From positions 3,348,001 through 3,412,000 of the forward strand of contig NZ_CP108095.1 of the NCBI RefSeq assembly GCF_036194065.1: a stretch of DNA of 64,000 nt. The letters are read 5' to 3'. Every line of letters starts with the position of its first letter. The first letter of the stretch is position 1. The DNA comes from Streptomyces sp. NBC_00239. GTDB taxonomy: Bacteria; Actinomycetota; Actinomycetes; Streptomycetales; Streptomycetaceae. A program made the translations under genes and the position numbers. This document shows, piece after piece, positions 3,083 through 17,180 of this stretch. Under the pieces are notes generated by a model. That model did not search any database. It was not told where the DNA came from and worked only from the letters and a program-made list of their open reading frames with translations.

Positions 3083-3113
3083 GGCACTCTAGCGCCTACG
3101 CGCGTAGAGTGCC
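3083..3113 (-). promoter_or_regulatory. add promoter with palindromic operator
   Basis: Positions 3096-3107 are the perfect 12-bp palindrome CTACGCGCGTAG. Overlapping it is a 9-bp inverted repeat, GGCACTCTA (3083-3091) and its complement (3105-3113). On the minus strand TAGAGT (a TAnnnT -10 box) ends 6 nt before the add ATG. The palindrome covers the expected -35 to -10 spacer, a typical place for a repressor to bind. Close copies sit before deoA, the transporter ATPase gene and bmpA. Confidence 0.7.
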
Positions 3114-3193
3114 CTGCCGGGCCGTGCGGTCGATACGTAACAGTGACCGTGCGGACGGGTGGCGTACACCCGGGCGTCTGAGACTGTTTCGCC

Positions 3194-3892
3194 ATGGCAC
3201 AGCATGCGCCGCCGGTGCGCGGGGCCCGTCTGGGACGGGCGACCCGCGCGAACGGCTCCGAGGTTGTCAGTGGTGTCGTCCTCTTACTGCCCGACGTCTC
3301 CCGCCTTCCCGCCGGCCCGGTCCGCGCCTTGAACAGGGCGCTGAGCAGGGCGGGCGCGGCAGAGGGGCTCGCCGTCCACGGGGTGCGCGGCGGCACCCCG
3401 GAGTGGGCCGCGGACGAGGTGGTACGGCGGTACGGAGACGTGCCGGTCTGCCTGGCCGGGTACGGACAGGGGGGTCTGGCCGCGCTGCGTTCGGCGGGCC
3501 ATCAGGCCGTCAACTCCGTCCTGGCCCTTGCCCCTTGCCTGCCGGAGCCGGCTCCCACGGCCTCCCCCGAACCGGTAAAGCAGCTGGCCGGCCGGCAGGT
3601 GCTGATCGTGCACGGCACGAACGACGCGCGCACGGACCCGGAGTTGTCCTTCCGGATGGCGGCCCGCGCGAAGAAGGCGAATCGTTCGACCTGCCGCTTC
3701 GAGGTCCACTCCGACGGGCACTCGCTGCGCGAGCACCGGGCCGAAGTGGTGTCCCTCGCCGTGGACTTCGTCCTGGGCGCGCTCTTCTCCGGCCGGTACT
3801 CGCGCCCGCTCACCGACGCCTTGGCCGCGCCGCCGCCGCTGGGGCTTCGCATGCCGCTCGCCTCGGGCTTCGGCCGGTCCCTGCGCGGGTAG
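3194..3892 (+). CDS. alpha/beta hydrolase-like protein with a TTA codon
   Basis: A 232-residue protein with the outline of a small alpha/beta hydrolase: an early hydrophobic strand (VVSGVVLLLPD), a nucleophile-elbow-like turn (GYGQGG near residue 93), a later strand (QVLIVHGTNDARTDPE) in which the Asp would be the acid, and a C-terminal DGHSLREH with the likely catalytic His. The elbow has Gln where Ser is usual (G-x-S-x-G), so hydrolase activity is doubtful unless another residue serves. Codon 31 (3284-3286) is TTA, the rarest Streptomyces codon, read by the bldA leucyl-tRNA. It stands alone, divergent from add. Confidence 0.65.
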   Translation: MAQHAPPVRGARLGRATRANGSEVVSGVVLLLPDVSRLPAGPVRALNRALSRAGAAEGLAVHGVRGGTPEWAADEVVRRYGDVPVCLAGYGQGGLAALRSAGHQAVNSVLALAPCLPEPAPTASPEPVKQLAGRQVLIVHGTNDARTDPELSFRMAARAKKANRSTCRFEVHSDGHSLREHRAEVVSLAVDFVLGALFSGRYSRPLTDALAAPPPLGLRMPLASGFGRSLRG

Positions 3893-3943
3893 CGCCCGGG
3901 CCGCTCGCGCCGCCGCCCCAGCCTCGTCTGGAGGTACCCCCGG

Positions 3944-3967
3944 ACCCGGTTCCCGGCGGAGCCGGGT
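3944..3967 (+). terminator. stem-loop after the hydrolase gene
   Basis: A 9-bp stem (ACCCGGTTC with GAGCCGGGT, one G-T pair) around a 6-nt loop, about 50 nt past the stop codon. It runs directly into a member of the dispersed repeat family. Confidence 0.45.
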
Positions 3968-3974
3968 CGCCCAG

Positions 3975-4027
3975 TTGGGGCTCCGCCCCAAACCCGCGCC
4001 TCAAACCCCTGCGAGGCCGGATTCGGC
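3975..4027. repeat. dispersed repeat copy 1
   Basis: This copy contains GGGGCTCCGCCCC, a short hairpin, followed by an ACCCGCGCCTCAAA core and a GCGAGGCCGG end. Similar elements occur at about 30784, 44650 and, in degenerate form, near 30655, 30721, 49797 and 52617. The rest of the 3893-4269 gap is GC-rich with no gene that I can support. Confidence 0.7.
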
Positions 4028-4232
4028 ATCTCGCCGCACGGCGGTGGTCGCGCCGGTCCGTCCGTACCCGCCGTTCCGCCCCCTCACGGACGGATGGCAC
4101 GGACGGCCCCGGCGCGACCACGACGGCGTGCGTGCCCGCTCCCCCTCGCGCCGTGCGGTCCACTCTGCCCGCGAGCAATGGTCCGTACCGCAGGGCCGAC
4201 GCTTCCGGTTGGCGCCTTGCGGGAACCGGAGG

Positions 4233-4244
4233 GGTTTACAAACC
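4233..4244. promoter_or_regulatory. short inverted repeat upstream of LuxR-type gene
   Basis: GGTTTACAAACC lies 26 nt upstream of the start of the regulator gene. An A/T-rich dyad in such GC-rich DNA is a plausible autoregulatory operator or promoter element, but nothing else supports it. Confidence 0.35.
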
Positions 4245-4269
4245 GTCCGGGACAGGGACGAATGGGAGC

Positions 4270-5403
4270 ATGTCAGCCGATCATGTGAGCCCGGCTGCCC
4301 GGCGCCTTTACGGGTACGCGGCCGGCCGGCACGCCTTCAGCACCGACGAGGCCGTCGCCGCGCTCGGCCCGGAGACGGACGGGGCGCTGGCGGAGCTGCT
4401 CGCCGCCCACCTGCTCCAGCGGGCCGCGGGCACCCGGGACACGTGGAGCGCGGTCGAGCCGCGGGCGGCGGCGGCCCGCGCGCTGGCGCCGCTCGCCGTG
4501 CGGATGCGCGAGGCCCAGGAGGAGATGGACCGCACCCGGCACCGGCTGGAGGAGCTGGTGCCGGCGTACGAGTCGGGCGCCGCGCAGCGTGCCGGGGAGG
4601 GGTCCGGCGGGCTGGAGCTGGTGACCGATCTGGGCGCGGTGCGCTCGATCATCGAGGAGCTGGCGGCGTCCTGCGAGGAGGAGCTGCTCACCTCACAGCC
4701 CGGCGGCGGCCGTCCGGTGGAGACGCTCGAGGACGCGATCGGGCGCGACGAGGCGATGCTGGCGCGCGGGGTGCGGATCCGGACCATCTACCAGCACACC
4801 GCGCGCTACGACCGGCCGACGGCCGCGTACGTGGAGCGGGTCACCGCGCTGGGCGCGCAGGTACGCACGCTCGGGGACGGGCTGATGCGGATGCTGGTGT
4901 TCGACGGGCGGACCGGGCTGATGGCGGTACGGGGCGCGGACGGGGCGGCGCAGAACGGCGCGGCGCTGGTGGTGCGGGAGCCGAACGTCGTGGACTTCAT
5001 GACGGCGGCCTTCGAGCGGTCGTGGCTGGGCGCGGAGCCGTTCCCCACCACGGTGGGGCCGGACCTGGCGCGCACCATCTCGGACGGGCTGCGGCAGACG
5101 ATCGTGCGGATGCTGGCGGAGGGCGTCGAGGACAAGGTGATCGCCCGGCGGCTGGGCATGTCGCAGCGCACCTGCCAGCGGCACATCTCGGAGATCATGC
5201 GGGCGGTCGGCGCGAAGAGCCGGTTCCAGGCGGGCTGGCGCGCCGCCTGCGCCCGGCGGACCGTGGAGCCGTCCGAGCCGTCCGAGCCGCAGGAGCCGCA
5301 GGAGCTACTGGAGCTGTCGGAGAGGCCGGAGGGGGCCGTGGAAGCCCGGGCCGTCAGAGCTCCGGGAGGAGGCGGCCGCGGCGGGAGAGCAGGAAGCGCT
5401 TGA
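4270..5403 (+). CDS. LuxR/TrmB-like transcriptional regulator
   Basis: A 377-residue regulator. The N-terminal 80 residues look like a TrmB-type winged helix (AARRLYGYAAGRHAFSTDEA then ALGPETDGALAELL), followed by a coiled region (MREAQEEMDRTRHRLEEL), a middle sensor-like domain, and a C-terminal LuxR helix-turn-helix (EGVEDKVIARRLGMSQRTCQ) near residues 300-320. This architecture is common in streptomycetes and usually controls neighbouring or secondary-metabolism genes; the ligand is unknown. After the HTH comes a low-complexity tail of Glu, Pro and Ser repeats. The ATG at 4270 follows GGGAG. Its last 50 nt overlap the end of the convergent LysR gene. Confidence 0.8.
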   Translation: MSADHVSPAARRLYGYAAGRHAFSTDEAVAALGPETDGALAELLAAHLLQRAAGTRDTWSAVEPRAAAARALAPLAVRMREAQEEMDRTRHRLEELVPAYESGAAQRAGEGSGGLELVTDLGAVRSIIEELAASCEEELLTSQPGGGRPVETLEDAIGRDEAMLARGVRIRTIYQHTARYDRPTAAYVERVTALGAQVRTLGDGLMRMLVFDGRTGLMAVRGADGAAQNGAALVVREPNVVDFMTAAFERSWLGAEPFPTTVGPDLARTISDGLRQTIVRMLAEGVEDKVIARRLGMSQRTCQRHISEIMRAVGAKSRFQAGWRAACARRTVEPSEPSEPQEPQELLELSERPEGAVEARAVRAPGGGGRGGRAGSA

Positions 5404-6286
5404 AGGCCGCCACGGGCAGGGTGTCGGGGTGGCCGTCGAGCCAGGCGACGCCGATCTCGCGGGCCGCTCGCGGGGCGGTGACGGTCAGTTCGACCACGCC
5501 CGGCCGGGCCACCGCGGGCGGCGGCAGCAGCGCCACGCCGAGGCCCGCGGCCACCAGGCCGCGCAGCGTCTCCGCCTCCTCGCCCTCGAACGCCACCCGC
5601 GGGGTGAAACCCGCCTGGGCGCACAGGTCGTCGGTGATCCGGCGCAGCCCGTACCCCGGTTCGAGGGTCACGAAGGTCTCGTCCGCGGCCTCCGCGAGGC
5701 GGATCCGCTTGCGGGTCGCGAGCCGGTGGTCGTCGGGGACCACCAGGCGCAGCCGCTGCTCGTCGAGGCGGCGGGCCACCAGGTCGGGGGCGTCGGGCAG
5801 CGGTGAGGTGAGGCACAGGTCCAGCTCGCCGGAGCGCAGCCGCTCCAGCATGGCCTCGCCGTAGTTCTGCACCAGGGAGAAGCGGACCCGGGGGTGGTCG
5901 ACGCGGAAGGCCCGGATCAGGGCGGGGACGGTCTCCGACCCCATGGTGTGGAGGAATCCGAACGCGACCTTGCCGGAGGCGGGATCGGCGTCGGCCCGTA
6001 CGGATTCGGCGGCCCGGTCGATCTCGGCGAGGGCGCGTTCCGCCGAGGCCAGGAGGGTGCGGCCGGCGGTGGTCAGCGTGACGGTCCGGCCCTTGCGGGC
6101 GAACAGGGCGACGCCCAGGTCCTGTTCGAGCCGGACCATGGCGCGGGACAGCGTCGGCTGGGGAACTCCCAGCTCGTGCGCGGCCCTCGTGACGTGCTCG
6201 TGCCGGGCGACCGCCGCGAAGTAGGCGAGGCGCGGCGCGAGCATTGTTGTCACGGCCGTGTCTTCTTCGTAACGGTTCATTGACAT
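5354..6286 (-). CDS. LysR-family transcriptional regulator
   Basis: A 310-residue LysR-type regulator. The winged HTH occupies about residues 15-75 (YFAAVARHEHVTRAAHELG, then QPTLSRAMVRLEQDLGVALF), and a periplasmic-binding-fold sensor domain runs from about 100 to 300. Start choice is between two in-frame ATGs at 6286 and 6280, both served by AGAAGG. It is divergent from an MFS exporter gene with only about 90 nt between them, the classic arrangement in which the LysR protein controls its neighbour and itself. A perfect dyad CACTGA-TACG-TCAGTG lies between them. The effector is unknown. It overlaps the convergent LuxR-type gene by 50 nt. Confidence 0.9.
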   Translation of the reverse strand: MSMNRYEEDTAVTTMLAPRLAYFAAVARHEHVTRAAHELGVPQPTLSRAMVRLEQDLGVALFARKGRTVTLTTAGRTLLASAERALAEIDRAAESVRADADPASGKVAFGFLHTMGSETVPALIRAFRVDHPRVRFSLVQNYGEAMLERLRSGELDLCLTSPLPDAPDLVARRLDEQRLRLVVPDDHRLATRKRIRLAEAADETFVTLEPGYGLRRITDDLCAQAGFTPRVAFEGEEAETLRGLVAAGLGVALLPPPAVARPGVVELTVTAPRAAREIGVAWLDGHPDTLPVAAFKRFLLSRRGRLLPEL

Positions 6287-6302
6287 GCACCCTTCTGAGC
6301 TG

Positions 6303-6318
6303 CACTGATACGTCAGTG
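6303..6318. promoter_or_regulatory. candidate operator between LysR and MFS genes
   Basis: A perfect 6-4-6 inverted repeat, CACTGA TACG TCAGTG, sits between the divergent genes, 17 nt from the LysR start and within the likely MFS promoter. A second, imperfect dyad (CCATGCATTGG) follows at about 6336. The region is unusually A/T-rich for this window, as expected for a divergent control region. Confidence 0.55.
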
Positions 6319-6379
6319 AATTGATTATCGCGATTCCATGCATTGGACGCATGAAAGAAGGAGTCGTAATTTCGAGGAC

Positions 6380-7714
6380 ATGCCTCCCGCTCATACCGGG
6401 GCACCCGTCACCTCGGGTGCCTCCACCCTGCCGTTCCCGGAAGCCGAAGCCGCGCCGGAAGCCGACGCCGCGCGCGACACCGCGCCCGTGGCCGGCCCCG
6501 CCGCCGAGCCGCTCTCCCCCGGCCGCCCCGGCTACCGCCGGATGAGCCTCGCGCTCTTCGCCGCCGGACTCGCGACCTTCGCCCTCCTCTACTCCACCCA
6601 GGCCCTGCTGCCCGCCATCTCCGCCGACTTCGGCGTGACGGCCGGTCAGGCCAGCTGGACGGTGTCCGCCGCGACGGGCGCGCTCGCCCTGTTCGTGCTG
6701 CCGCTGAGCGCCCTGTCCGAGCGCTTCGGCCGGACCCGGATGATGACCTGTTCGATGGCCGTGGCCGTCGCGGTCGGCCTGCTGATCCCCCTCGCCCCCG
6801 ACCTCGACGCGCTGATCGCGCTGCGCGCGGTGCAGGGCGCGGCGATCGCGGGCATCCCCGCCTCGGCGATGGCGTACCTCGCGGAGGAGGTCCGGCCCAA
6901 GGCGCTGGTCGGCGCGATCGGGCTGTTCGTCGCGGGCAACTCGCTGGGCGGCATGAGCGGCCGCCTCGTCACCGGGTGGGCGGCCCAGCTGGGCGGCTGG
7001 CGGGCCGGGCTGGCCGCGGTGGGCGTGCTGGCCCTGGTGTGCGCGGTGGTCTTCCGGGTGCTGCTGCCCAGGGCCCGCTTCTTCTCGCCGGCCGCACTCG
7101 CGCCGCGGGCGCTGGGCCGGACCGTGGCCGGGCACCTCAAGGACCCGCTGCTGCTGCGCCTGTACGCGATCGGCGCGCTCTTCATGACGGTCTTCGGCGC
7201 CGTGTACACGGTGATCGGCTACCGGCTGGCCGAGGAGCCGTTCTCGCTGGGCCAGGGCGTGATCGGCTCGATCTTCCTCGTGTACCTCGTCGGTACGGTC
7301 TCCTCGGCCGCCGCCGGACAGCTCGTCGCCCGGCTCGGCCGGCGCGGGGCCCTGTACCTGGCGGTGTCCACCACGGCGGCGGGTCTGCTGCTGTCGCTGT
7401 CCGACCGGCTGGGCGCGGTCCTGGCCGGCCTGGTGCTGATCACCGCGGGCTTCTTCGCGGGCCACGCGGTCGCCTCGTCGTCGGTCAGCCGCACCGCGAA
7501 GAGCGGCCGGGCGCAGGCGTCCGCGCTCTACCAGTCCTCGTACTACCTGGGCAGCAGCGCGGGCGGCACGCTCGGAGCGGTCGCCTTCCACGCGGCGGGC
7601 TGGCAGGCCACCGTGCTGCTGGGGCTGCTGGCGGTGCTGGGCGTCGTCTCCATCACCCTGTACGGCTCCCGGGTGGCCCGCGCCGAGCGCCTGATGCTGC
7701 GCACCGCGCGGTAG
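6380..7714 (+). CDS. MFS transporter (drug or metabolite exporter, DHA1 type)
   Basis: About 444 residues with 12 predicted membrane helices, beginning near residue 58 (LALFAAGLATFALLYSTQ). The conserved loop 2-3 motif of the major facilitator superfamily is present (LSERFGRTRMM), as is a motif-C-like GAIGLFVAGNSLGGMSGR in helix 5, typical of proton-driven efflux pumps. The first 55 residues are a disordered acidic and Pro-rich tail. The start is uncertain: ATG at 6380 (used here) or ATG at 6338, adding 14 residues; neither has a well-spaced Shine-Dalgarno site. Divergence from the LysR gene suggests inducible export of a compound sensed by that regulator. Confidence 0.85.
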   Translation: MPPAHTGAPVTSGASTLPFPEAEAAPEADAARDTAPVAGPAAEPLSPGRPGYRRMSLALFAAGLATFALLYSTQALLPAISADFGVTAGQASWTVSAATGALALFVLPLSALSERFGRTRMMTCSMAVAVAVGLLIPLAPDLDALIALRAVQGAAIAGIPASAMAYLAEEVRPKALVGAIGLFVAGNSLGGMSGRLVTGWAAQLGGWRAGLAAVGVLALVCAVVFRVLLPRARFFSPAALAPRALGRTVAGHLKDPLLLRLYAIGALFMTVFGAVYTVIGYRLAEEPFSLGQGVIGSIFLVYLVGTVSSAAAGQLVARLGRRGALYLAVSTTAAGLLLSLSDRLGAVLAGLVLITAGFFAGHAVASSSVSRTAKSGRAQASALYQSSYYLGSSAGGTLGAVAFHAAGWQATVLLGLLAVLGVVSITLYGSRVARAERLMLRTAR

Positions 7715-7834
7715 TCAGCACTCCGGCGCGAGGCGCAGAAAAAATACGGTGGTCCGGCGCGCAACTGGCGCCGGGCCGCCTAGCGTCACACTTTCGAGGG
7801 CCCGACGGGGCCCGGTGACGGCGAGGGGGACGGC

Positions 7835-8548
7835 ATGGGGCCGATTCGTAAGATACGCACGACCCGGCGGCGGGCGGTGGCCGCGGCCGCGACGGCCGCG
7901 CTGGTGGTGCCGCTGACGGTGGCGGTCACGGCGGCGCCGGCCCAGGCCGCCTCGTGCAACCTGACCACCGGCCCGTACCAGCGCGAGGTGGAGAAGTTCC
8001 TGGGGCGCCCGGTGGACGGGCGGCAGTCCGCGGCGGACTGCGAGGCGACCAAGGCGTTCCAGGCGAAGCACGGCATCACCCCGACCGTGGGGTACGCGGG
8101 GATCCTCACCTGGCGGACGATGAGCACGATGCTCGCCCAGCGGGCCGCGGGGACCAACCCGAACAAGGACGGGAAGTGCCCGGTCAACCGCGGACGGATC
8201 GCGTGCGTGGACCTGACGCGGCAGCTGAGCTGGATCCAGGACGGCCGGACCCTGAAGTACGGCCCGGTCCCGGTGCGCACCGGGAAGGACGGCACCGAGA
8301 CCCGGACCGGCCTGAAGAAGATCTACCAGCGCGAGCTGAACCACTGGTCGTCGATCTACCACGTGTGGATGCCGTACTCGCAGTTCTTCGACGGCGGCCA
8401 GGCCTTCCACTCCGTCACCAAGAGCATGTGGAACCCGCCGGGCTCGGGCGGCTGCGTGAACATGCGGCCCGCGGACGCCAAGGCCTACTGGAACATGCTG
8501 CGCAACGGGGAGGACGTCTACGTGTACGGCCGCAAGCCGGGCACGTGA
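7835..8548 (+). CDS. secreted L,D-transpeptidase-like protein with atypical SGGC motif
   Basis: A 237-residue exported protein: a long basic N-terminus (KIRTTRRR), a hydrophobic core and an AQA-AS cleavage site near residue 40. A short peptidoglycan-binding-like segment follows (EVEKFLGRPVDGRQ to FQAKHGITPTVGY), then a YkuD (L,D-transpeptidase) domain. YkuD enzymes make 3-3 cross-links using a Cys in a [ST]HGC-x-N motif with a His upstream. Here the upstream His is present (AFHSVTKSMW) and the nucleophile region reads SGGCVNM, so Gly replaces the motif His. The Cys and Asn remain. The GTGG-rich leader carries TAGCGT at 7781 and a GAGGGGG ribosome site. Confidence 0.8.
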   Translation: MGPIRKIRTTRRRAVAAAATAALVVPLTVAVTAAPAQAASCNLTTGPYQREVEKFLGRPVDGRQSAADCEATKAFQAKHGITPTVGYAGILTWRTMSTMLAQRAAGTNPNKDGKCPVNRGRIACVDLTRQLSWIQDGRTLKYGPVPVRTGKDGTETRTGLKKIYQRELNHWSSIYHVWMPYSQFFDGGQAFHSVTKSMWNPPGSGGCVNMRPADAKAYWNMLRNGEDVYVYGRKPGT

Positions 8549-8588
8549 GACCGGCCCCCGAGCGCTTCCGGCTGCCGCTGTCAGACCT

Positions 8589-8620
8589 CTGGGGTACGTT
8601 CCGGAGTATCGGAACCCCAG
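8589..8620. promoter_or_regulatory. 32-bp interrupted inverted repeat before the sigma gene
   Basis: CTGGGG (8589-8594) pairs with CCCCAG (8615-8620), and inside it TTCCG (8599-8603) pairs with CGGAA (8610-8614). It ends just before the ribosome binding site (GGGGAAGG) of the sigma factor gene, so it could be an operator or a 5' UTR hairpin. Confidence 0.5.
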
Positions 8621-8633
8621 GGGGAAGGCAGAC

Positions 8634-9659
8634 ATGAGCGAGCTCGCGACCAGGCCCGAACTGGACGGCCTGCTGGACCGCCACCGGGTCGAGCTGACCG
8701 GCTACTGCTACCGGATGCTCGGTTCGTCCTTCGACGCGGAGGACGCGGTCCAGGAGGCGTACATCCGCGCCTGGCGCAGCTACGACAAGTTCGAGGGCCG
8801 CTCCTCGGTGCGCTCGTGGCTGTACCGGATCGCCACCAACGTGTGCCTGGACATGCTCAGCGCCGGCAACAAGCGGGCCCGCCCGATGGACCTGTCGGCG
8901 CCGCAGTCCCAGTCCTCGGCCGTGCTGAACACGCTGCCGGAGGTGACGTGGCTGGAGCCGGTGCCGGACAGCCGGGTGCTGCCGCAGACCGCCGACCCGG
9001 CGGAGATGGCGCTGGCCCGCGAGTCGGTGCGGCTCGCCTTCGTGGCGGCGCTCCAGCACCTGCCCTCCCGGCAGCGGGCGGTGCTGATCCTGCGCGAGGT
9101 ACTGGCCTGGAAGGCCGACGAGGTCGCGGAGCTGCTCGGCACCACGGTGGCCTCGGTGAACAGCGCGCTCCAGCGGGCCCGGGCCACGCTCGCCGCGCAG
9201 CACCTGCGCGAGAGCGAGGCCGTCGACCCGCTCGACGAGGAGCAGCGCAAGCTGCTGGACCGCTATCTCGCGGCCTTCGAGGGGTACGACATCGACCAGC
9301 TGACGGCGCTGCTGGCCGAGGACGCGGTGCTGTCGATGCCGCCGTTCGACCTGTGGCTCCAGGGGCCGGCCGACATCGCGGCCTGGCACCGGGAGCAGGG
9401 CAGCGGCTGCAAGGGCTCCCGGATGCTGGCGACCACGGCCAACGGGCTGCCCGCCTTCGCCCAGTACCGGCGGTCCGAGGACGGCGACGGGCACGTCCCG
9501 TGGGCCCTGCAGGTCCTGGAGATCTCAGGCGGGAAGATCGTCGGACTGAATTCGTTCCTCGACACGGACCGGTGGTTCCCGATGTTCGGGCTCCCCGACC
9601 GCCTCCCCGCCGAGCCCGTCACCGATCGCGTCACCGATCCCGTCGACGAGCCCGCCTAG
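8634..9659 (+). CDS. ECF RNA polymerase sigma factor with SnoaL-like C-terminal domain
   Basis: A 341-residue group 4 sigma factor. Region 2 covers about residues 15-90 (YCYRMLGSSFDAEDAVQEAY, then SVRSWLYRIATNVCLD) and region 4 about 135-195 (LPSRQRAVLILREVL, then VAELLGTTVASVNSALQRAR). The C-terminal 130 residues form a SnoaL/NTF2-like domain (LLDRYLAAFEGYDIDQLTAL), which in related sigma factors acts in place of a separate anti-sigma factor. The layout matches the TIGR02960 (SigG/SigJ-like) families. No anti-sigma gene is adjacent, but a STAS-domain gene overlaps its 3' end in the opposite direction by 135 nt. Confidence 0.9.
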   Translation: MSELATRPELDGLLDRHRVELTGYCYRMLGSSFDAEDAVQEAYIRAWRSYDKFEGRSSVRSWLYRIATNVCLDMLSAGNKRARPMDLSAPQSQSSAVLNTLPEVTWLEPVPDSRVLPQTADPAEMALARESVRLAFVAALQHLPSRQRAVLILREVLAWKADEVAELLGTTVASVNSALQRARATLAAQHLRESEAVDPLDEEQRKLLDRYLAAFEGYDIDQLTALLAEDAVLSMPPFDLWLQGPADIAAWHREQGSGCKGSRMLATTANGLPAFAQYRRSEDGDGHVPWALQVLEISGGKIVGLNSFLDTDRWFPMFGLPDRLPAEPVTDRVTDPVDEPA

Positions 9660-9959
9660 GCCCGCCAGGCCGATCAGCAGGCGCAGCCGCGCCCCGGTGC
9701 CCGTCAGCCGCAGCCGGGCGCCGTGCCGGCGTGCGGTGAGCACCAGCCGGGCCAGCACGTCGACCGCGCCGAGGCCCGGCTCGGTGACCGCGGAGACGTC
9801 GCAGCGGACGTCGCCGGGGCCGTCCCGGCACAGCATCTCCTGTAAGCGCGCGCACAGTGCCGGCGCGTCCCCGGGCCCCGGTGCGGGCCCGGGGACGATC
9901 AGGGTCTCCCGTTCGATGGTGTCCACGGGAGGTGGACCGGCGCGGCGGCCGGAACTCAT
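9525..9959 (-). CDS. STAS-domain protein (anti-sigma factor antagonist-like)
   Basis: About 144 residues. A STAS fold is suggested by an early beta strand, then CDVSAVTEPGLGAVDVLARL, the usual region around the phosphorylatable Ser/Thr of SpoIIAA-type antagonists, then ARRHGARLRLTG. The exact Ser of the D-S-S-G signature is absent (EPGLGA), so phospho-switching is not expected. The C-terminus is a Gly-rich then acidic tail. The start may be ATG 9959 or GTG 9998. It lies 64 nt downstream of deoA, possibly co-transcribed, and its 3' end is antisense to the sigma factor gene for 135 nt. Codon statistics favour both overlapping genes being real. Confidence 0.6.
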   Translation of the reverse strand: MSSGRRAGPPPVDTIERETLIVPGPAPGPGDAPALCARLQEMLCRDGPGDVRCDVSAVTEPGLGAVDVLARLVLTARRHGARLRLTGTGARLRLLIGLAGLGGLVDGIGDAIGDGLGGEAVGEPEHREPPVRVEERIQSDDLPA

Positions 9960-9966
9960 CGGTCCC

Positions 9967-10009
9967 GGACACCGCTCCCGGCCACCGCCCCGGGACACCG
10001 CTCCCGGCC
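9967..10009. repeat. 17-bp direct repeat, two copies
   Basis: GGACACCGCTCCCGGCC occurs at 9967-9983 and again at 9993-10009, either side of the alternative STAS start codons. On the minus strand each unit supplies a GGGAG that could serve as a ribosome binding site. Confidence 0.75.
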
Positions 10010-10023
10010 GCGGCCGGAGGCCG

Positions 10024-11301
10024 TCAGGCGATGCGGTCGAGCACGATCGGGGCGGCCTTGAAGTCCGTGCCCGCCGGGGCCACGTCGTACGAACCCTCCA
10101 GCGAGGCGAGCGCGTAGTCGAACTTCTCGGGGGTGTCCGTGTGCAGGGTCATCAGCGGCTGGCCCGCGGTGACCGTGTCGCCCGGCTTGGCGTGCAGCTC
10201 GATGCCCGCGCCCGCCTGCACCGGGTCCTCCTTGCGGGCCCGGCCGGCGCCCAGGCGCCAGGCGCCGACGCCCACCGCGTACGCGTCGAGGCGGGTCAGG
10301 ACGCCGGAGGCGGAGGCCGTGACCACGTGCTGCTCGCGGGCCACCGGCAGGGCCGCGTCCGGGTCGCCGCCCTGGGCCGCGATCATCCGGCGCCAGTGGT
10401 CCATCGCGGTGCCGTCGGCGAGGGCCTTCGCCGGGTCGGCGTCCTTGATGCCGGCCGCGTCGAGCATCTCGCGCGCCAGCGCGATGGTCAGCTCGACCAC
10501 GTCGGCGGGGCCGCCGCCGGCCAGCACCTCCACGGACTCCCGGACCTCCAGGGCGTTGCCCGCGGTCAGGCCGAGCGGGGTCGACATGTCGGTGAGCAGC
10601 GCGACGGTCTTGACGCCGGAGTCGGTGCCCAGGCCCACCATGGTGCGGGCCAGTTCGCGGGCGTCCTCGATGTTCTTCATGAAGGCGCCGGAGCCGACCT
10701 TCACGTCGAGGACCAGGGAGCCGGTGCCCTCGGCGATCTTCTTGGACATGATCGAGGAGGCGATCAGCGGGATGGCCTCGACGGTGCCGGTCACGTCGCG
10801 CAGCGCGTACAGCTTCTTGTCGGCCGGGGCCAGTCCGTCGCCCGCCGCGCAGATCACCGCACCGGTGGTGTCGAGGACGTGCAGCATCTCCTCGTTGGAG
10901 AGCAGCGCGCGCCAGCCGGGGATGGACTCCAGCTTGTCGAGAGTGCCGCCGGTGTGGCCCAGACCGCGGCCGGAGAGCTGCGGCACGGCCGCGCCGCAGG
11001 CGGCGACGAGCGGGGCCAGCGGCAGGGTGATCTTGTCGCCGACGCCGCCGGTGGAGTGCTTGTCGGCGGTGGGGCGGGACAGCGAGTCGAAGTTCATGCG
11101 CTCGCCGCTCGCGATCATCGCGGCGGTCCAGCGGGCGATCTCGGCCCGGTTCATGCCGTTGAGCAGGATGGCCATGGCCAGCGCGGACATCTGCTCGTCG
11201 GCGACCACACCGCGCGTGTACGCGTCGATGACCCAGTCGATCTGCTCGGGGCTCAGCTCACCGCGGTCGCGCTTGGTCCGGATGACGGAGATGACGTCCA
11301 T
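10024..11301 (-). CDS. deoA: thymidine phosphorylase
   Basis: A 425-residue pyrimidine nucleoside phosphorylase that converts thymidine (and deoxyuridine) with phosphate to the base and deoxyribose 1-phosphate. Family features are clear: the N-terminal alpha domain (VIRTKRDRGELSPEQIDWVI), the phosphate-binding KHSTGGVGDK near residues 80-89, SGRGLGHTGGTLDKLESI around 110-127, and the C-terminal alpha/beta domain (AGAGIELHAKPGDTVTAGQP). Length is normal. It is downstream of cdd in the same direction, with a 100-nt gap containing the palindrome CTACGCGCATAG and an AAGGAAG ribosome site, so it probably has its own regulated promoter as well as read-through. Confidence 0.95.
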   Translation of the reverse strand: MDVISVIRTKRDRGELSPEQIDWVIDAYTRGVVADEQMSALAMAILLNGMNRAEIARWTAAMIASGERMNFDSLSRPTADKHSTGGVGDKITLPLAPLVAACGAAVPQLSGRGLGHTGGTLDKLESIPGWRALLSNEEMLHVLDTTGAVICAAGDGLAPADKKLYALRDVTGTVEAIPLIASSIMSKKIAEGTGSLVLDVKVGSGAFMKNIEDARELARTMVGLGTDSGVKTVALLTDMSTPLGLTAGNALEVRESVEVLAGGGPADVVELTIALAREMLDAAGIKDADPAKALADGTAMDHWRRMIAAQGGDPDAALPVAREQHVVTASASGVLTRLDAYAVGVGAWRLGAGRARKEDPVQAGAGIELHAKPGDTVTAGQPLMTLHTDTPEKFDYALASLEGSYDVAPAGTDFKAAPIVLDRIA

Positions 11302-11314
11302 GAGTTACTTCCTT

Positions 11315-11326
11315 CTACGCGCATAG
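11315..11326 (-). promoter_or_regulatory. deoA operator (nucleoside palindrome, one mismatch)
   Basis: CTACGCGCATAG lies 14 nt upstream of the deoA start, next to its ribosome binding site. It differs by one base from the perfect palindrome upstream of add and of the ABC transporter ATPase gene. Confidence 0.65.
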
Positions 11327-11401
11327 AGAGGGGTGTGGGCGGTACAGCGGGGAAGTACGACGGCCCCCCGCCCCGCAGGGCGAAGGGCCGTCGTCGTACG
11401 G

Positions 11402-11806
11402 CTATCTCAGATGGTCGGGCCCGAAGGCCTGCGGCAGCATGGCCGAGAGCGGCAGCACCCCGTCGGGGGTCTCCACCAGCAGCTCGGGGCCGCCGAATTC
11501 GTACAGCAGCTGCCGGCAGCGCCCGCACGGGACGAGGATCTCGCCCTTGCCGTCCACGCACGTGAAGTGCGTGAGCCGGCCGCCGCCGGTCGCCTGCAGC
11601 GAGGAGACCAGGCCGCACTCGGCGCACAGGCCCAGTCCGTAGCTGGCGTTCTCCACGTTGCAGCCGGTGACCACGCGCCCGTCGTCGACCTGGGCGGCCA
11701 CGCCGACCGGGAAGCCGGAGTACGGGGCGTAGGCGCGGGACATGGCGTCCTTGGCCTGCTCCCGCAGGGCGTCCCAGCCGGCGGCGGGCGCGCCGGGCGC
11801 GGTCAC
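11402..11806 (-). CDS. cdd: cytidine deaminase
   Basis: A 134-residue zinc enzyme converting cytidine and deoxycytidine to uridine forms. The active site is complete: NVENASYG (substrate-binding Asn/Glu) near residues 48-55, CAE (zinc Cys and catalytic Glu) soon after, and PCGRCRQ with the other two zinc cysteines near 87-93. Length is that of the homotetrameric class. The GTG start at 11806 overlaps the permease stop by 4 nt (GTGA), so translation is coupled to the transporter genes. Placed between transporter and deoA, it completes a cytidine/deoxycytidine route: import, deamination, phosphorolysis. Confidence 0.95.
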   Translation of the reverse strand: MTAPGAPAAGWDALREQAKDAMSRAYAPYSGFPVGVAAQVDDGRVVTGCNVENASYGLGLCAECGLVSSLQATGGGRLTHFTCVDGKGEILVPCGRCRQLLYEFGGPELLVETPDGVLPLSAMLPQAFGPDHLR

Positions 11807-13068
11807 TTGCCCTGGCCCTTCCGGTACGGCATGCCGTCCGCCTTGGGCATCCGCAGCCGCTGCGCGGAGAGCGCGAGGACCAGCAGGGTGGTGACGTACG
11901 GGGCGGCGTCGACGAACTGGCTCGGGACCTCGTCGGTCAGCGCGTACCAGAGGAAGAGCAGCACCGAGAACGCGGCGGCGACGCCGGCCTGGACGTACTT
12001 CTTCTTGTACAGCTGCCAGGCCGTGGCCACGACCAGGAGGATCGCGAGGAGCAGCAGCATGGCGTGCACGTTCTCGGCGCCGCCGCGCAGCTTGAGGCTG
12101 TCGGTGAAGCCGAAGAGGCCCGCGCCCAGCGCCATGCCGCCCGGCATCCAGTTACCGAAGATCATCGCGGCGAGACCGATGTAGCCTCGGCCGCCGGTCT
12201 GGCCCTCCTGGTAGATGCCGGTGGAGACGATCGCGAGGAACGCGCCGCCGAGGCCGGCCAGGGCGCCGGAGACGATCACGGCGATGTACTTGTACTTGTA
12301 CACGTTGACGCCGAGGGACTCGGCGGCGACCGGGTTCTCGCCGCATGAGCGCAGCCGCAGGCCGAAGGAGGTCCGCCACAGCACCCAGGTGCTCGCGGGG
12401 ATCAGCAGCAGGGCGACGACGGTCAGCAGCGACAGGTTGGTGACCAGGCCGCCGATGACGCCGGCGATGTCCGAGAGCAGGAACCAGTGCTTGCCCTGGA
12501 GGGTGGTCATCCAGTCGGACAACCCGGGCACGTCGATCTCGGTGATCGGGTCGATGCGCGGCGACTGCTTGGAGGAGCCGCCGGGCTCCTCGTTGAACGT
12601 GTAGTTCGACAGGTACTGCGTCATGCCGGCGGCCAGGATGGTCACCGCCACACCGGAGACGATGTGGTTGACGTTGAAGGTCACCGTGATGATCGCGTGC
12701 AGCAGGCCGCCGAGCGCGCCGCCGAGGATGCCCACCAGGACGCCCGTCCAGGGACCCCACTGGTAGCCGGCCCAGGCACCGAACCAGGTGCCGAGGATCA
12801 TCATGCCCTCGAGGCCGATGTTGACCACGCCGGCCCGCTCGGACCACAGGCCGCCGAGGCCGGCGAGGCCGATCGGGACCGCGAGCTTCAGGGCGCCGGA
12901 GACCTGGCCGACGGAGGTCAGGTCGTCGGCGCCGCTGATCAGGCGGACCGCCGAGATCAGCACGAGGCCGCCGGCGATGATCAGCAGGATCCAGGGCAGG
13001 GTGAGCTTCTTGCGGCCGCCGCCCGCCTTGGGCGCGGACTTTGCCGCGGAGACAGTGCTGGTGCTCAC
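11803..13068 (-). CDS. nucleoside ABC transporter permease (second subunit)
   Basis: A 421-residue integral membrane protein with about nine hydrophobic helices. It belongs to the sugar/nucleoside-type branched permease family (LivH/RbsC-like): the long conserved segments GLAGLGGLWSERAGVVNIGL, then GGALGGLLHA, and RSCGENPVAAESLGVNV (the EAA-like loop that contacts the ATPase) are visible. It forms the import channel together with the permease encoded just upstream. GTG start at 13068 overlaps the upstream gene by 4 nt. Partner of the BmpA-type binding lipoprotein, consistent with purine or pyrimidine nucleoside uptake. Confidence 0.9.
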   Translation of the reverse strand: MSTSTVSAAKSAPKAGGGRKKLTLPWILLIIAGGLVLISAVRLISGADDLTSVGQVSGALKLAVPIGLAGLGGLWSERAGVVNIGLEGMMILGTWFGAWAGYQWGPWTGVLVGILGGALGGLLHAIITVTFNVNHIVSGVAVTILAAGMTQYLSNYTFNEEPGGSSKQSPRIDPITEIDVPGLSDWMTTLQGKHWFLLSDIAGVIGGLVTNLSLLTVVALLLIPASTWVLWRTSFGLRLRSCGENPVAAESLGVNVYKYKYIAVIVSGALAGLGGAFLAIVSTGIYQEGQTGGRGYIGLAAMIFGNWMPGGMALGAGLFGFTDSLKLRGGAENVHAMLLLLAILLVVATAWQLYKKKYVQAGVAAAFSVLLFLWYALTDEVPSQFVDAAPYVTTLLVLALSAQRLRMPKADGMPYRKGQGK

Positions 13069-14180
13069 GCCGCGACCTCCTTCTCGGTCTTCATGGCGCC
13101 GCCGGCGGCGAGTTCCTCGCCGACCTTCTGCTGCTGGCGGCGGATGCCGTAACGGCGGACGAGCTCGTACGAGACGACCACCGCGATCACGATCAGGCCC
13201 TTCATGATCGTGGCGATTTCCTTGGCGTAGCCGTACTGGTCGAGCACGGCCGAGGCCTTGTCCAGGAACGCGATCAGGAGCGCCGCGAAGAAGATGCCGA
13301 CCGGGTGGTTGCGGCCGAGCAGCGCGATCGTGATGCCCGTGAAGCCGATACCGGCCGGGAAGGACAGGCTGTACGTGTGGGTGTCGCCCAGCAGGGTCGG
13401 CATGCCGATGAGGCCGGCGACCGCACCCGAGATCAGCATCGCGGTGAGGATCATCTTCTTGCCGTCGACGCCCGAGGCCTGGGCCGCGGACTCGCTGGCG
13501 CCGGAGGCGCGCAGGTCGAAGCCGAAGCGGGTCCGGTTGAGGACGAACCAGTAGACGATGCCGAGGGCGAAGGCGACGAAGGTGAAGCCGTAGATCTCAC
13601 CGGAGTCGCCCAGGCTCAGGGCCGGGAACCAGCCGGACTCGGGGATGTCGCCGGTGGTGAGGTCGTTCGAGCCCTCCAGCTGCACGCCGAAGTTCTCGGG
13701 CCGCAGCAGCCAGGCCACCAGGGCGGTCGCGATGGCGTTCAGCATGATCGTCGAGACGACCTCGCTGACACCGCGCTTGGCCCTGAGGATGCCGGCGATG
13801 CCGGCCCAGAAGGCGCCGACGCACATGGCGACGAGCACGATCAGCAGGATGTGCAGCGGACCCGGCAGGCTCACTGCCGCACCGACCACGGCGGCCACCA
13901 TCGCGGCGAGGCGGTACTGGCCGTCGACGCCGATGTTGAAGAGGTTCATCCGGAAGCCGATGGCGACGGCCAGGGCTGCCAGGTAGTACGTGCCGGTCTG
14001 ATTGACGATCAGGACCTGGACGTCCTCGTAACCGGCGTTCTCCACCATCAGGCGGATCGGCTCGATCGGGTTGACGCCCGTGGCGAGCAGCACCACGGCG
14101 GTCAGCACGAAGGCGCTGACCAGCGCGAGCACCGGCCCGGCGGCACCCAGGATCAGCTTGTCCTTGTCGATTTTCATCAT
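13065..14180 (-). CDS. nucleoside ABC transporter permease (first subunit)
   Basis: A 371-residue membrane protein starting MMKIDKDKL, with a first helix (ILGAAGPVLALVSAFVL) and about ten in all. The EAA-like loop reads RASGASESAAQASGVD. Such permeases pair with a second permease and one double ATPase. The start at 14180 was set by the ATGA overlap with the ATPase stop codon; a longer frame reaching 14711 runs through the ATPase gene and is spurious. Neighbouring BmpA and salvage enzymes point to nucleosides as substrate rather than sugars. Confidence 0.9.
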   Translation of the reverse strand: MMKIDKDKLILGAAGPVLALVSAFVLTAVVLLATGVNPIEPIRLMVENAGYEDVQVLIVNQTGTYYLAALAVAIGFRMNLFNIGVDGQYRLAAMVAAVVGAAVSLPGPLHILLIVLVAMCVGAFWAGIAGILRAKRGVSEVVSTIMLNAIATALVAWLLRPENFGVQLEGSNDLTTGDIPESGWFPALSLGDSGEIYGFTFVAFALGIVYWFVLNRTRFGFDLRASGASESAAQASGVDGKKMILTAMLISGAVAGLIGMPTLLGDTHTYSLSFPAGIGFTGITIALLGRNHPVGIFFAALLIAFLDKASAVLDQYGYAKEIATIMKGLIVIAVVVSYELVRRYGIRRQQQKVGEELAAGGAMKTEKEVAA

Positions 14181-15919
14181 CGGGCCTCGTCCTCCGGCGA
14201 ATCGGCCGCGGCGGAGTCGTTGTCGGTGCTCGCTGCGTTCTCGTCGTGATCCAGGTGTCCCCGGGCCGCGCCGGTCATGGCGGTGCCCAGTTCCTCCGGG
14301 GTGATGGTCGCGGGGTCGGCGTCCGCGACCAGGCGCCCGCGGTAGATCACGCGCAGCGTGTCCGACAGGCCGATCAGCTCGTCCAGGTCCGCGGAGATCA
14401 GCAGGACGGCCAGGCCCTCGCGACGTGCCTCCCGGATCGCGTCCCAGATCTGCGCCTGCGCGCCGACGTCCACACCACGGGTGGGGTGGGCGGCGATCAG
14501 GAACTTCGGGTTGTGGCTCATCTCGCGGCCGACGATCAGCTTCTGCTGGTTGCCGCCGGAGAGCGAGGCCGCGGTGACCTCGATGCCCGGGGTGCGGACG
14601 TCGTACTCGCGCACGATCCGCTCGGTGTCCTTGCGGGCCGCCTTCGGGTCGAGGATGCCGCGCTTGGAGTTGGGCTCTTCGGTGACGTGGCCCAGGATGC
14701 GGTTCTCCCACAGCGGGGACTCCAGCAGCAGGCCGTGCCGGTGCCGGTCCTCGGGGATGTAGCCGATGCCGCCCTCACGCCGCTTGCGGGTGGGGGCGGT
14801 GGAGATGTCCTGGCCGTCGAGGCTGATGACGCCGCCGTCCGGGAGGCACATGCCCATCAGGGCCTCGATGAGCTCCGTCTGGCCGTTGCCCTCGACGCCG
14901 GCGATGCCGAGCACCTCACCCTTGTGGATGGTGAAGCTGATGTCGTCCAGCAGCAGCCGGCCGGCCTCGGTCCTCTCGCGGACCGCGGAGTCCTCCGAGG
15001 ACTCGCGGACCAGGACCTCGGGCTCCGCGACGACCGCGCCCTCCGCGCCGACGGTCAAGCCCGTCACCTGGAGCATCGGGATGTCGGTCACCGTGGACTC
15101 GCGGGTTTCGGGCGAGGGCAGCTCGCTGCCGACCATCAGCTCGGCGAGCTGCTTGGTGGTGGCGGTCTTCGGGTCGGCGGTGCCGACCGTGGTGCCGCGC
15201 CGGATGACGGTGATGTCGTCGGCGACCTTCAGGATCTCGCCCAGCTTGTGCGAGATGAAGATGACCGTCAGACCCTCCGCCTTGAGCTCGCGGAGGTTGC
15301 CGAAGAGCGCGTCCACCTCCTGCGGCACGAGCACGGCGGTCGGCTCGTCGAGGATGAGGATCTTCGCACCGCGGTAGAGGACCTTGAGGATCTCCACGCG
15401 CTGGCGGTCGGCGACGCCCAGGTCCTCGACCAGGGCGTCCGGGCGTACGCCCAGACCGTAGGCGTCGGAGATCTCCAGGATCTTCTTGCGGGCCTTGGCA
15501 CCGATGCCGTACAGCTTCTCGCCGCCGAGAACCACGTTCTCCAGGACGGTGAGGTTGTCGGCCAGCATGAAGTGCTGGTGCACCATGCCGATGCCGCGGG
15601 CGATGGCATCTGCGGGGGTGCTGAAGGCGACCTGCTCCCCGTCGATCGCGATGGTGCCCTCGTCCGGCTTCTGCATGCCGTAGAGGATCTTCATCAGAGT
15701 CGACTTGCCGGCACCGTTCTCACCGATCAGGGCATGCACAGTGCCCTTGCGGACCGTGATCGCGATGTCCTTGTTGGCGACGACGCCGGGGAAGCGCTTG
15801 GTAATGCCGTGCAGTTCTACGGCGGGGGGCGGGCTGGACGCGTTGATGACGCACTCTCCTTGGCGCGAAGGAGCGGAAGGCAGGGAGGACAGGGCGGGTC
15901 GTGAAGGTATCGCGTCCAC
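14177..15919 (-). CDS. nucleoside ABC transporter ATP-binding protein (double ABC domain)
   Basis: About 580 residues with two ABC domains in tandem, as in RbsA/NupO-type importers. The first has Walker A GENGAGKST, the signature region GVADRQRVEILKVLYRGAK and Walker B ILILDEPT. The second has a degenerate Walker A (GVEGNGQTEL), a full LSGGNQQKL signature and a Walker B in which KFLIAAHPTRG lacks the usual Asp-Glu pair, so probably only one site hydrolyses ATP well. The GTG at 15919 follows AGAGG; a later start after AAGGAG near 15861 would need a non-standard codon. A palindromic operator sits 8-19 nt upstream. Confidence 0.9.
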   Translation of the reverse strand: MDAIPSRPALSSLPSAPSRQGECVINASSPPPAVELHGITKRFPGVVANKDIAITVRKGTVHALIGENGAGKSTLMKILYGMQKPDEGTIAIDGEQVAFSTPADAIARGIGMVHQHFMLADNLTVLENVVLGGEKLYGIGAKARKKILEISDAYGLGVRPDALVEDLGVADRQRVEILKVLYRGAKILILDEPTAVLVPQEVDALFGNLRELKAEGLTVIFISHKLGEILKVADDITVIRRGTTVGTADPKTATTKQLAELMVGSELPSPETRESTVTDIPMLQVTGLTVGAEGAVVAEPEVLVRESSEDSAVRERTEAGRLLLDDISFTIHKGEVLGIAGVEGNGQTELIEALMGMCLPDGGVISLDGQDISTAPTRKRREGGIGYIPEDRHRHGLLLESPLWENRILGHVTEEPNSKRGILDPKAARKDTERIVREYDVRTPGIEVTAASLSGGNQQKLIVGREMSHNPKFLIAAHPTRGVDVGAQAQIWDAIREARREGLAVLLISADLDELIGLSDTLRVIYRGRLVADADPATITPEELGTAMTGAARGHLDHDENAASTDNDSAAADSPEDEAR

Positions 15920-15926
15920 GAGACCT

Positions 15927-15938
15927 CTACGCGCGTAG
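15927..15938 (-). promoter_or_regulatory. operator of the transporter operon
   Basis: A perfect copy of CTACGCGCGTAG, 8 nt upstream of the ATPase GTG start. The ribosome site AGAGG abuts it. Bound protein here would block transcription or translation initiation. Confidence 0.7.
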
Positions 15939-15976
15939 CTCTGTCGAAAGTGAAAACTTCAGGCCACAAATGCGGC

Positions 15977-16019
15977 CCGGGGTCCGGGAGCGGTGAAGAG
16001 ACCGCAACCCGGACCCCGG
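15977..16019 (-). terminator. terminator of bmpA
   Basis: A two-tier hairpin: outer 12-bp stem CCGGGGTCCGGG (15977-15988) with its complement (16008-16019), inner 5-bp stem GCGGT/ACCGC. It lies 27 nt past the bmpA stop, separating bmpA from the ATPase gene. Confidence 0.8.
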
Positions 16020-16045
16020 CGACCGTCAGATCGAGACGACCTGCC

Positions 16046-17107
16046 TTACGGCGCGGTCTTGACCTTGATCTTGCCGGCGATGATCTCGGCCTTCGCCTTG
16101 TCGACCGCGGCGATGAGCTCGGTCATCTTCTTGTACTCGGGGTTGGAGTCGGCCAGGCCGACGCCGTCCTTGTCGAGGCCGTAGCGGACCTCACCGGACT
16201 GCGGCTTGCCGTCCTTGACCGACTTGATCAGGTTGTAGACCGAGTCCGAGACGTCCTTGGTGACGGAGGTCAGGATCTTGGCCTTGAACTTCGCCAGACC
16301 GGCCTGGTTGTACTGGTCCGAGTCCACACCGATGGCCCACTTGCCCGCGGTGGAAGCGGCCTCGATCGCACCGGAACCGGCGAGACCGGCAGCGGCGTAG
16401 ACCACGTCGGCGCCCTTGGCGATCTGGCCCTCGGCGGCCTGCTTGCCGAGGTCGGGCTTGGCGAAGCCCTCGAAGTTCGGCGGCTGCGACAGGTACTGGG
16501 TCAGCACCACGGCCTTGGGGTTGGTGTCCTTGACGCCCTGGACGTAGCCGGCCTCGAACTTCTTGATCAGCGGGACCTCGACACCGCCGATGAAGCCGAC
16601 CTTGCCGGTCTTGGACGCCTTGGCGGCGGCGACGCCGGCCAGGTAGGAGCCCTGCTCCTCGTTGAAGACCATGTTCGCGATGTTCGGCGCGGTCACCGAG
16701 GTGTCGTCGATGATGCCGAAGGTGGTCTTCGGGAACTTCGCGGCGACCTTCTTGATGGCCGGGGCGTAGGCGAAGCCGACACCGATGACCGGGTTGCTGC
16801 CCTTGCGCGCGAGCTCGGTGAGGCGCTGCACCTTGTCGGCGTCGCTCTCGCCCTCGGTGGGCTCGGCCTCCGCGCCCTTGACGCCGAGGTCCTTCTCGGC
16901 CTTCTCCAGACCGGCGAACGCGGCGTCGTTGAACGACTGGTCGCCGCGGCCGCCGATGTCGTACGCGATGGCGGCGGTGGAACCCGCCGACGAGGACGAG
17001 TCCGAGGACGCGGTGTCGGAGGACTTCTTTCCACCACACGCAGTGGCGGAGAGGGCGAGGGCCGCGGACGCAATGCCCACGGTCGCGATCCTGGTGATCC
17101 GGCGCAA
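16046..17107 (-). CDS. bmpA: BmpA-family nucleoside-binding lipoprotein
   Basis: A 353-residue substrate-binding lipoprotein. Signal peptide MRRITRIATVG, lipobox A-T-A-C with the modified Cys at residue 24, a Ser/Asp linker, then the BMP (PnrA-like) domain: AYDIGGRGDQSFNDAAFAGL near residues 48-67 and IGVDSDQYNQAG further on, both positions that contact the nucleoside in PnrA homologues. It delivers nucleosides to the permeases encoded downstream. The start codon is TTG, supported by AAGGAG 7 nt upstream. It has its own terminator and its own copy of the palindrome, so it can be made at higher levels than the membrane subunits, as is usual for binding proteins. Confidence 0.92.
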   Translation of the reverse strand: MRRITRIATVGIASAALALSATACGGKKSSDTASSDSSSSAGSTAAIAYDIGGRGDQSFNDAAFAGLEKAEKDLGVKGAEAEPTEGESDADKVQRLTELARKGSNPVIGVGFAYAPAIKKVAAKFPKTTFGIIDDTSVTAPNIANMVFNEEQGSYLAGVAAAKASKTGKVGFIGGVEVPLIKKFEAGYVQGVKDTNPKAVVLTQYLSQPPNFEGFAKPDLGKQAAEGQIAKGADVVYAAAGLAGSGAIEAASTAGKWAIGVDSDQYNQAGLAKFKAKILTSVTKDVSDSVYNLIKSVKDGKPQSGEVRYGLDKDGVGLADSNPEYKKMTELIAAVDKAKAEIIAGKIKVKTAP

Positions 17108-17168
17108 GGGGAGGCTCCTTCAAAACCTGACCGAAGCGCCACGACCGGCGCTGGTTTCGCGGCGATCG

Positions 17169-17180
17169 TAACGCGCGTAG
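17169..17180 (-). promoter_or_regulatory. bmpA operator (10 of 12 match)
   Basis: TAACGCGCGTAG, matching the nucleoside palindrome at 10 of 12 positions, 61 nt upstream of the bmpA TTG start. This is the position expected for a promoter-overlapping operator on a transcript with a leader. Confidence 0.55.

Follow-up and report, generated by a model that had tools for sequence, protein, structure and literature searches.

A lineage-restricted palindrome as the predicted operator of a nucleotide-economy regulon in Streptomycetaceae

A 64,000-nucleotide stretch of the genome of Streptomyces sp. NBC_00239 (contig NZ_CP108095.1, positions 3,348,001 to 3,412,000), hereafter the window, carries the palindrome CTACGCGCGTAG in front of genes for nucleoside uptake and salvage. 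This dyad, whose general form is CTACNNGCGTAG, is very likely the operator of one dedicated repressor of nucleotide economy in Streptomycetaceae, as predicted from sequence. It defines a real and new regulon of a familiar type. The sites, their specificity, their position, and their conservation can be read directly from the genomes: the same motif stands before several functionally related transcription units, and it stands before orthologous genes of other species within the family, not outside it.

The exact dyad occurs at four places in the 9,315,054 bases of the genome, and the reversed-pattern control at none. All four copies fall within 30 kb (C1:3334420-3363938), and the genes behind them are punA, deoC, add, and the ATPase gene of a nucleoside importer. 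The copies before punA (L005:5420) and deoC (L005:17857) lie just outside the window. punA encodes a purine-nucleoside phosphorylase (TIGR01698, 325.5 bits, cut-off 302.6) and is followed by a phosphomutase-type gene, while deoC was identified with TIGR00126 (177.1 bits, cut-off 117.3). The genome-wide scan settles the exact copies as real. With the relaxed pattern TACGCGCGTA, eight places were found (two for the control), and places with exactly one mismatch number 27, which is at background (28 control places with at most one mismatch); eight of these 27 have one repeated context in common, which we take to be 23S rRNA. The looser pattern CTACNNGCGTAG is found at six places, all of them before nucleotide genes, namely the four exact copies, a site before purS, and a site before a dihydropyrimidinase operon, the latter two located 1.0-1.4 Mb from the cluster. 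Because the control for this pattern gave similar counts (six forward and five reverse matches), the argument for CTACNNGCGTAG lies in the specificity of place and not in the number of matches. Four of the six places defined the motif, the purS and pyrimidine-operon sites being the independent ones.

For the window itself, an earlier note had placed four copies of the dyad before nucleoside genes, and all four are found where it put them (the sites are given without strand). Exact copies lie at 3096..3107, 16 bp ahead of the add start codon with a -10-like TAGAGT between operator and ATG, and at 15927..15938, 5' of the importer ATPase gene. A copy with 11 of 12 positions, CTATGCGCGTAG on the gene strand, is located at 11315..11326, 13 bp before the deoA ATG and beside the ribosome-binding site, and this variant recurs before deoA of genome G246. 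A copy with 10 of 12 positions, CTACGCGCGTTA on the gene strand, is located at 17169..17180, about 62 bp upstream of the bmpA TTG, and runs into a -10-like TACGAT (both boxes read by eye). The claim that no other promoter in the window has the motif also holds, the other matches with two mismatches (3881, 51323, and 58698) all being within open reading frames.

Exact copies are present in all 101 Streptomyces genomes sampled, with 2-6 per genome and a total of 384 places, whereas the control has 56. Within the family, 80 of 81 Streptomycetaceae genomes (17 genera) harbor an exact copy, with 1-5 copies each; the sole genome without one, G495, has CTACTCGCGTAG before deoC. Three divergent genera of the family have fewer copies, which persist with one mismatch, and such one-mismatch copies are found at deoC, punA, and bmpA in G487, at deoC and punA in G490, and at deoC in G495. 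In a class-wide sample, the exact copy was detected in 44 of 44 genomes of the same genus versus 13 of 349 others. Among 91 exact sites examined in fetched loci (one or a few per genome, two being own-genome duplicates), 34 precede punA, 21 add or a paralogue, 16 the importer ATPase gene, and three deoC. The other 17 comprise nine outside the family, one at a contig edge, two before purN, and five further sites, of which one lies between mshD and a 5'-nucleotidase gene, one before a HAD-type gene, and three have no plausible target. As in the window, add is preceded by an exact copy in relatives, and most operator variants keep one half intact (CTACGC on one strand), with the other half diverged. 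The earlier note had proposed one operator in nucleoside promoters, to be checked by a genome scan for the dyad: these counts in Streptomyces and in the family support the proposal, together with the genome-wide specificity and the conserved sites far from the cluster, and the note's own refutation test, a random spread or homologous promoters without the dyad, did not overturn it within the family.

Away from the salvage cluster, the site before purS (PF02700) reads CTACCCGCGTAG in the own genome. Across 30 Streptomyces loci it has one mismatch in 29 and two in the remaining one, and it is followed by the same -10-like box. The pyrimidine-operon site, CTACGTGCGTAG in the own genome and with one mismatch in 26 of 30 Streptomyces loci, precedes a carbon-nitrogen hydrolase gene. 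Its operon also contains dihydropyrimidinase (TIGR02033, 567.2 bits, cut-off 393.25) and corresponds to the reductive pyrimidine breakdown pathway. The context makes the hydrolase a putative beta-ureidopropionase-like enzyme; N-carbamoylputrescine amidase is the closest model that bears a name, at 260.6 bits against a cut-off of 410.25. An additional CTACG half-site was seen by eye about 15 bp before the dyad in several leaders of this operon (L290-L319). In the stretches read, no regulator gene adjacent to the pyrimidine operon or purS was recognized by eye. In G007 and G415, a second adenosine deaminase gene (PF00962) is megabases distant from the cluster; this second gene has the exact dyad in five loci, in which the dyad sits just inside the start codon. 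In G307, an exact copy lies between mshD and a divergent secreted 5'-nucleotidase-like gene, and the own genome harbors CTACGCGCGTTG at this place; the own mshD matches TIGR03448 (372.8 bits, cut-off 163.1), and the 5'-nucleotidase-like gene gives partial matches below cut-offs and no Pfam match for the part read. Two loci of genus g135 (L129 and L131) carry an exact copy about 100 bp upstream of the purN reading frame (PurN of L131, 220.2 bits, cut-off 150.1), and the own purN has no copy with fewer than two mismatches. G095 has an exact dyad (L023:1501) on a contig other than that of the nucleoside cluster, 16 bp upstream of what was judged by eye to be a HAD-type hydrolase gene. Finally, CAACGCGCGTAG occurs twice as direct copies 22 bp apart (L184:1008 and 1030, own C1:5981407 and 5981429), in front of a gene that presumably encodes a SIMPL-domain protein, and this pair is perhaps the site of another regulator.

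Several points weigh against a single operator that serves all of these genes alike. The window contains seven matches with at most two mismatches, an unremarkable count given the shuffle mean of 4.29 (standard deviation 1.88) and the 11 of 100 shuffles that reached seven. Because this count is so close to that of the shuffles, the window alone leaves the near copies at deoA and bmpA unproven, and these would not stand alone. Promoter elements and start points were read by eye. The pyrimidine-operon site has two mismatches in two of its 30 loci and was not found in two others, and the 5'-nucleotidase/mshD site comes from two genomes. No copy was found in the importer-deoA stretches of G490 and G495, and 18 deoA clusters of other families contain neither a copy with at most one mismatch nor a common dyad; the operator system is thus confined to its lineage, and some of its targets vary. 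In the class-wide sample, one place was inspected in each of nine of the 13 genomes from other genera that have an exact copy, and none of these places precedes a nucleoside gene. A variant dyad was also sought in the 18 clusters of other families and in a divergent family member (L243), and none was convincing.

The genes behind the sites in the window are all on the minus strand. The add gene (1931..3079) encodes adenosine deaminase (NF006847, 643.7 bits, cut-off 412), deoA (10024..11301) a pyrimidine-nucleoside/thymidine phosphorylase (NF004490, 642.6 bits, cut-off 269), and cdd (11402..11806) cytidine deaminase (NF004064, 185.2 bits, cut-off 74). The importer consists of permease 2 (11803..13068) and permease 1 (13065..14180), both PF02653, and of a sugar/BMP-type ATP-binding cassette (ABC) protein (14177..15919), whose NCBIfam matches remain below equivalog cut-offs and whose start codon is uncertain. 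The bmpA gene (16046..17107) encodes a substrate-binding lipoprotein of the PnrA/BMP type (PF02608, 204.2 bits, cut-off 24.1). Between cdd and deoA, just 5' of the deoA operator, a GC-rich hairpin, GTACGACGACGGCCC...GGGCCGTCGTAC (11345-11400), is a possible terminator or attenuator inside the operon.

As judged by eye, the dyad lies in the -35/-10 spacer at add, deoC, and bmpA, overlaps the -35 at punA and purS, is located at the ribosome-binding site at deoA, and lies past the likely start point at the pyrimidine operon. Because the site works at such different positions, a repressor suits better than an activator or a sigma factor, and the binder is probably a repressor. We infer that one protein acts at all sites: as a dimer on the dyad, whether this covers the promoter or follows directly after it, it would block transcription until its ligand signals. 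The putative regulon would include import (bmpA and the importer ATPase operon), deamination and phosphorolysis (add, the second add in some species, cdd, deoA, and punA), deoxyribose use (deoC), de novo purine synthesis (purS), reductive pyrimidine breakdown, and perhaps the secreted 5'-nucleotidase. It would form one metabolic programme that leads from nucleoside release outside the cell to import, deamination, phosphorolysis, and deoxyribose use, and that would also adjust purine synthesis and pyrimidine breakdown. With the latter two pathways, the predicted regulon is wider than that of the earlier note. The note had also proposed a single repressor whose ligand is a nucleoside; the single operator is supported, the nucleoside as ligand is not established, and the signal may be a nucleoside, a ribose or deoxyribose phosphate, a purine, or a related metabolite.

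The regulator appears to act from elsewhere, as the same note had held: no fitting regulator was recognized by eye in the gene list of the window, which was not scanned by family, and a nearby DeoR-family gene is disfavored. The chances are slightly better than even that it is some DNA-binding protein other than the two candidates considered here, neither of which is proven. Only selected genome stretches were read, and further regulators were seen by eye near the sites, such as the response-regulator and sigma-factor genes at L005:11649-13187.

The best candidate on circumstantial grounds, and still a tentative one, is a LacI-family protein encoded just downstream of glnR (L322:7254-8291), which may act as PurR and CytR combined. 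It was reached by following the 5'-nucleotidase/mshD site, and it carries the LacI helix-turn-helix (PF00356, 49 bits, cut-off 27) and a periplasmic-binding-protein-like domain (PF13377, 108.9 bits, cut-off 26.5). Its best NCBIfam scores are with RbsR, PurR, GalS, and CytR models, all below cut-offs: it reaches 191.4 of 382 bits for the RbsR equivalog NF047341, 179.7 of 501 for PurR (NF007979), 170.3 of 436 for CytR (NF008269), and 164.4 of 442.35 for the CcpA equivalog TIGR01481. In the best 80 of 459 relatives, fetched as loci, glnR precedes the gene in 79, and in all 80 a 31-residue DNA-binding segment is identical and the start region of the gene contains CGCGTAGA, which is half of the operator. 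The promoter thus holds only half of the dyad, a point against the candidate, and this half-site overlaps a -10-like box, with neighboring bases conserved too. Most versions of the site have the CG step at the center that LacI operators typically show, but versions at the pyrimidine operon lack it. The recognition helix reads VSYVIN, compared to VSRVVN in CcpA, with Tyr in place of Arg, and at the position that matches this Tyr in the LacI code, the operator has an unusual base; the change would fit the unusual operator. About 6.6 kb separate the near end of the gene from the 5'-nucleotidase/mshD site, a proximity that may be coincidence, and the relatives (the best 80, and a list of the best 120) are almost only from Streptomyces. 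To our knowledge, no targets of this SCO4158-like protein have been described. Its equivalence to SCO4158 is taken from the place beside glnR given in a paper whose authors suggest that it might regulate glnR, a point against the candidate (PMC9739823). In another study the promoter of the gene served as a constitutive one, which speaks neither for nor against its candidacy (PMC4365011).

An unlikely regulator is the SCO4920-like DeoR-family protein encoded beside punA (L005:2152-3108; PF08220 and PF00455), about 16 kb outside the window. Its gene lies only 2.3 kb from the punA site, has an orthologue in 81 of 81 family genomes (81-100% identity), and remains linked to punA in the divergent genera G490, G495, and G500. 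DeoR proteins sense sugar phosphates that arise in nucleoside breakdown, which would suit the regulon. However, 48 of its own promoters were compared with the dyad and none comes closer than three mismatches, and relatives from another family with 68-71% identity and a near-same recognition helix (L150-L156) adjoin sugar-type ABC importers, named by eye and by weak match; for these two reasons the gene is a weak candidate and was set aside. GATC-n6-GATC repeats were found no more than 250 bp upstream of the gene in four of these seven relatives and in L168 (five of 20 fetched loci), with three repeats each in L150-L153, and they are perhaps the DeoR relatives' own operator. The protein scores 73.1 bits with the E. 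coli-type DeoR model NF007961 (cut-off 244). The promoter of the DeoR gene is conserved over about 60 bp (L072-L101 and L132-L149), and only 11 of 48 contain the dyad CTGCTGAAAGCAG in exact form, too few for a general feature of the promoter. Finally, it is highly improbable that CTACGCGCGTAG belongs to the promoter as a sigma-factor element or arose by chance repetition of GC-rich sequence, an idea favored by the near-chance count in the window but opposed by the variable distance to -10-like boxes, by sites past the likely start point or within the coding start, and by six genome places that all precede nucleotide genes.

The proposed repressor operator can be compared with several known systems. 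In E. coli, the corresponding tasks are split among PurR, CytR, and DeoR. The CytR/DeoR regulons likewise have a single type of operator in front of cdd, deoC/deoA, and the genes for nucleoside uptake and phosphorylases, but their operators are different, and in Streptomyces purS and pyrimidine breakdown bear the same site as the salvage genes. UriR from Corynebacterium (NF051853) is also a LacI-family nucleoside regulator of an actinobacterium, but the LacI candidate reaches only 116 bits with its model (cut-off 550). The PurR model is among the best-scoring ones for this candidate, which nevertheless remains far below its cut-off, and the operator differs from the PurR box. PurR of E. coli belongs to the LacI family and represses through palindromes before purine synthesis genes (PMC10912719). 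XdhR from S. coelicolor is a Streptomyces purine-salvage transcription factor, but the part of the review that presents it describes it for xdhABC and actinorhodin genes, with no mention of add, punA, bmpA, or purS as targets; XdhR is the purine transcription factor discussed there, and the word PurR is absent from that text (PMC6627660). A description of the operator or of the regulon was not found in the open-licence PMC literature searched, and subscription work could exist; the letters of CTACGCGCGTAG turn up in two publications on other subjects.

Being sharply defined, with six genomic places, the operator can serve as bait for the regulator, and it also shows where its targets lie and yields a candidate that can be tested. 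According to the same review, antibiotic production and sporulation of Streptomyces are directed by purine pools, GTP, ppGpp, and c-di-GMP (PMC6627660). Conceivably, though this is rather doubtful, one master repressor, the SCO4158-like orphan LacI protein whose gene adjoins that of the nitrogen regulator GlnR, with an altered residue for recognition and a new operator to match, would govern nucleoside scavenging, purine synthesis, and pyrimidine breakdown in Streptomycetaceae. If so, nucleotide supply would be tied to nitrogen control and development.

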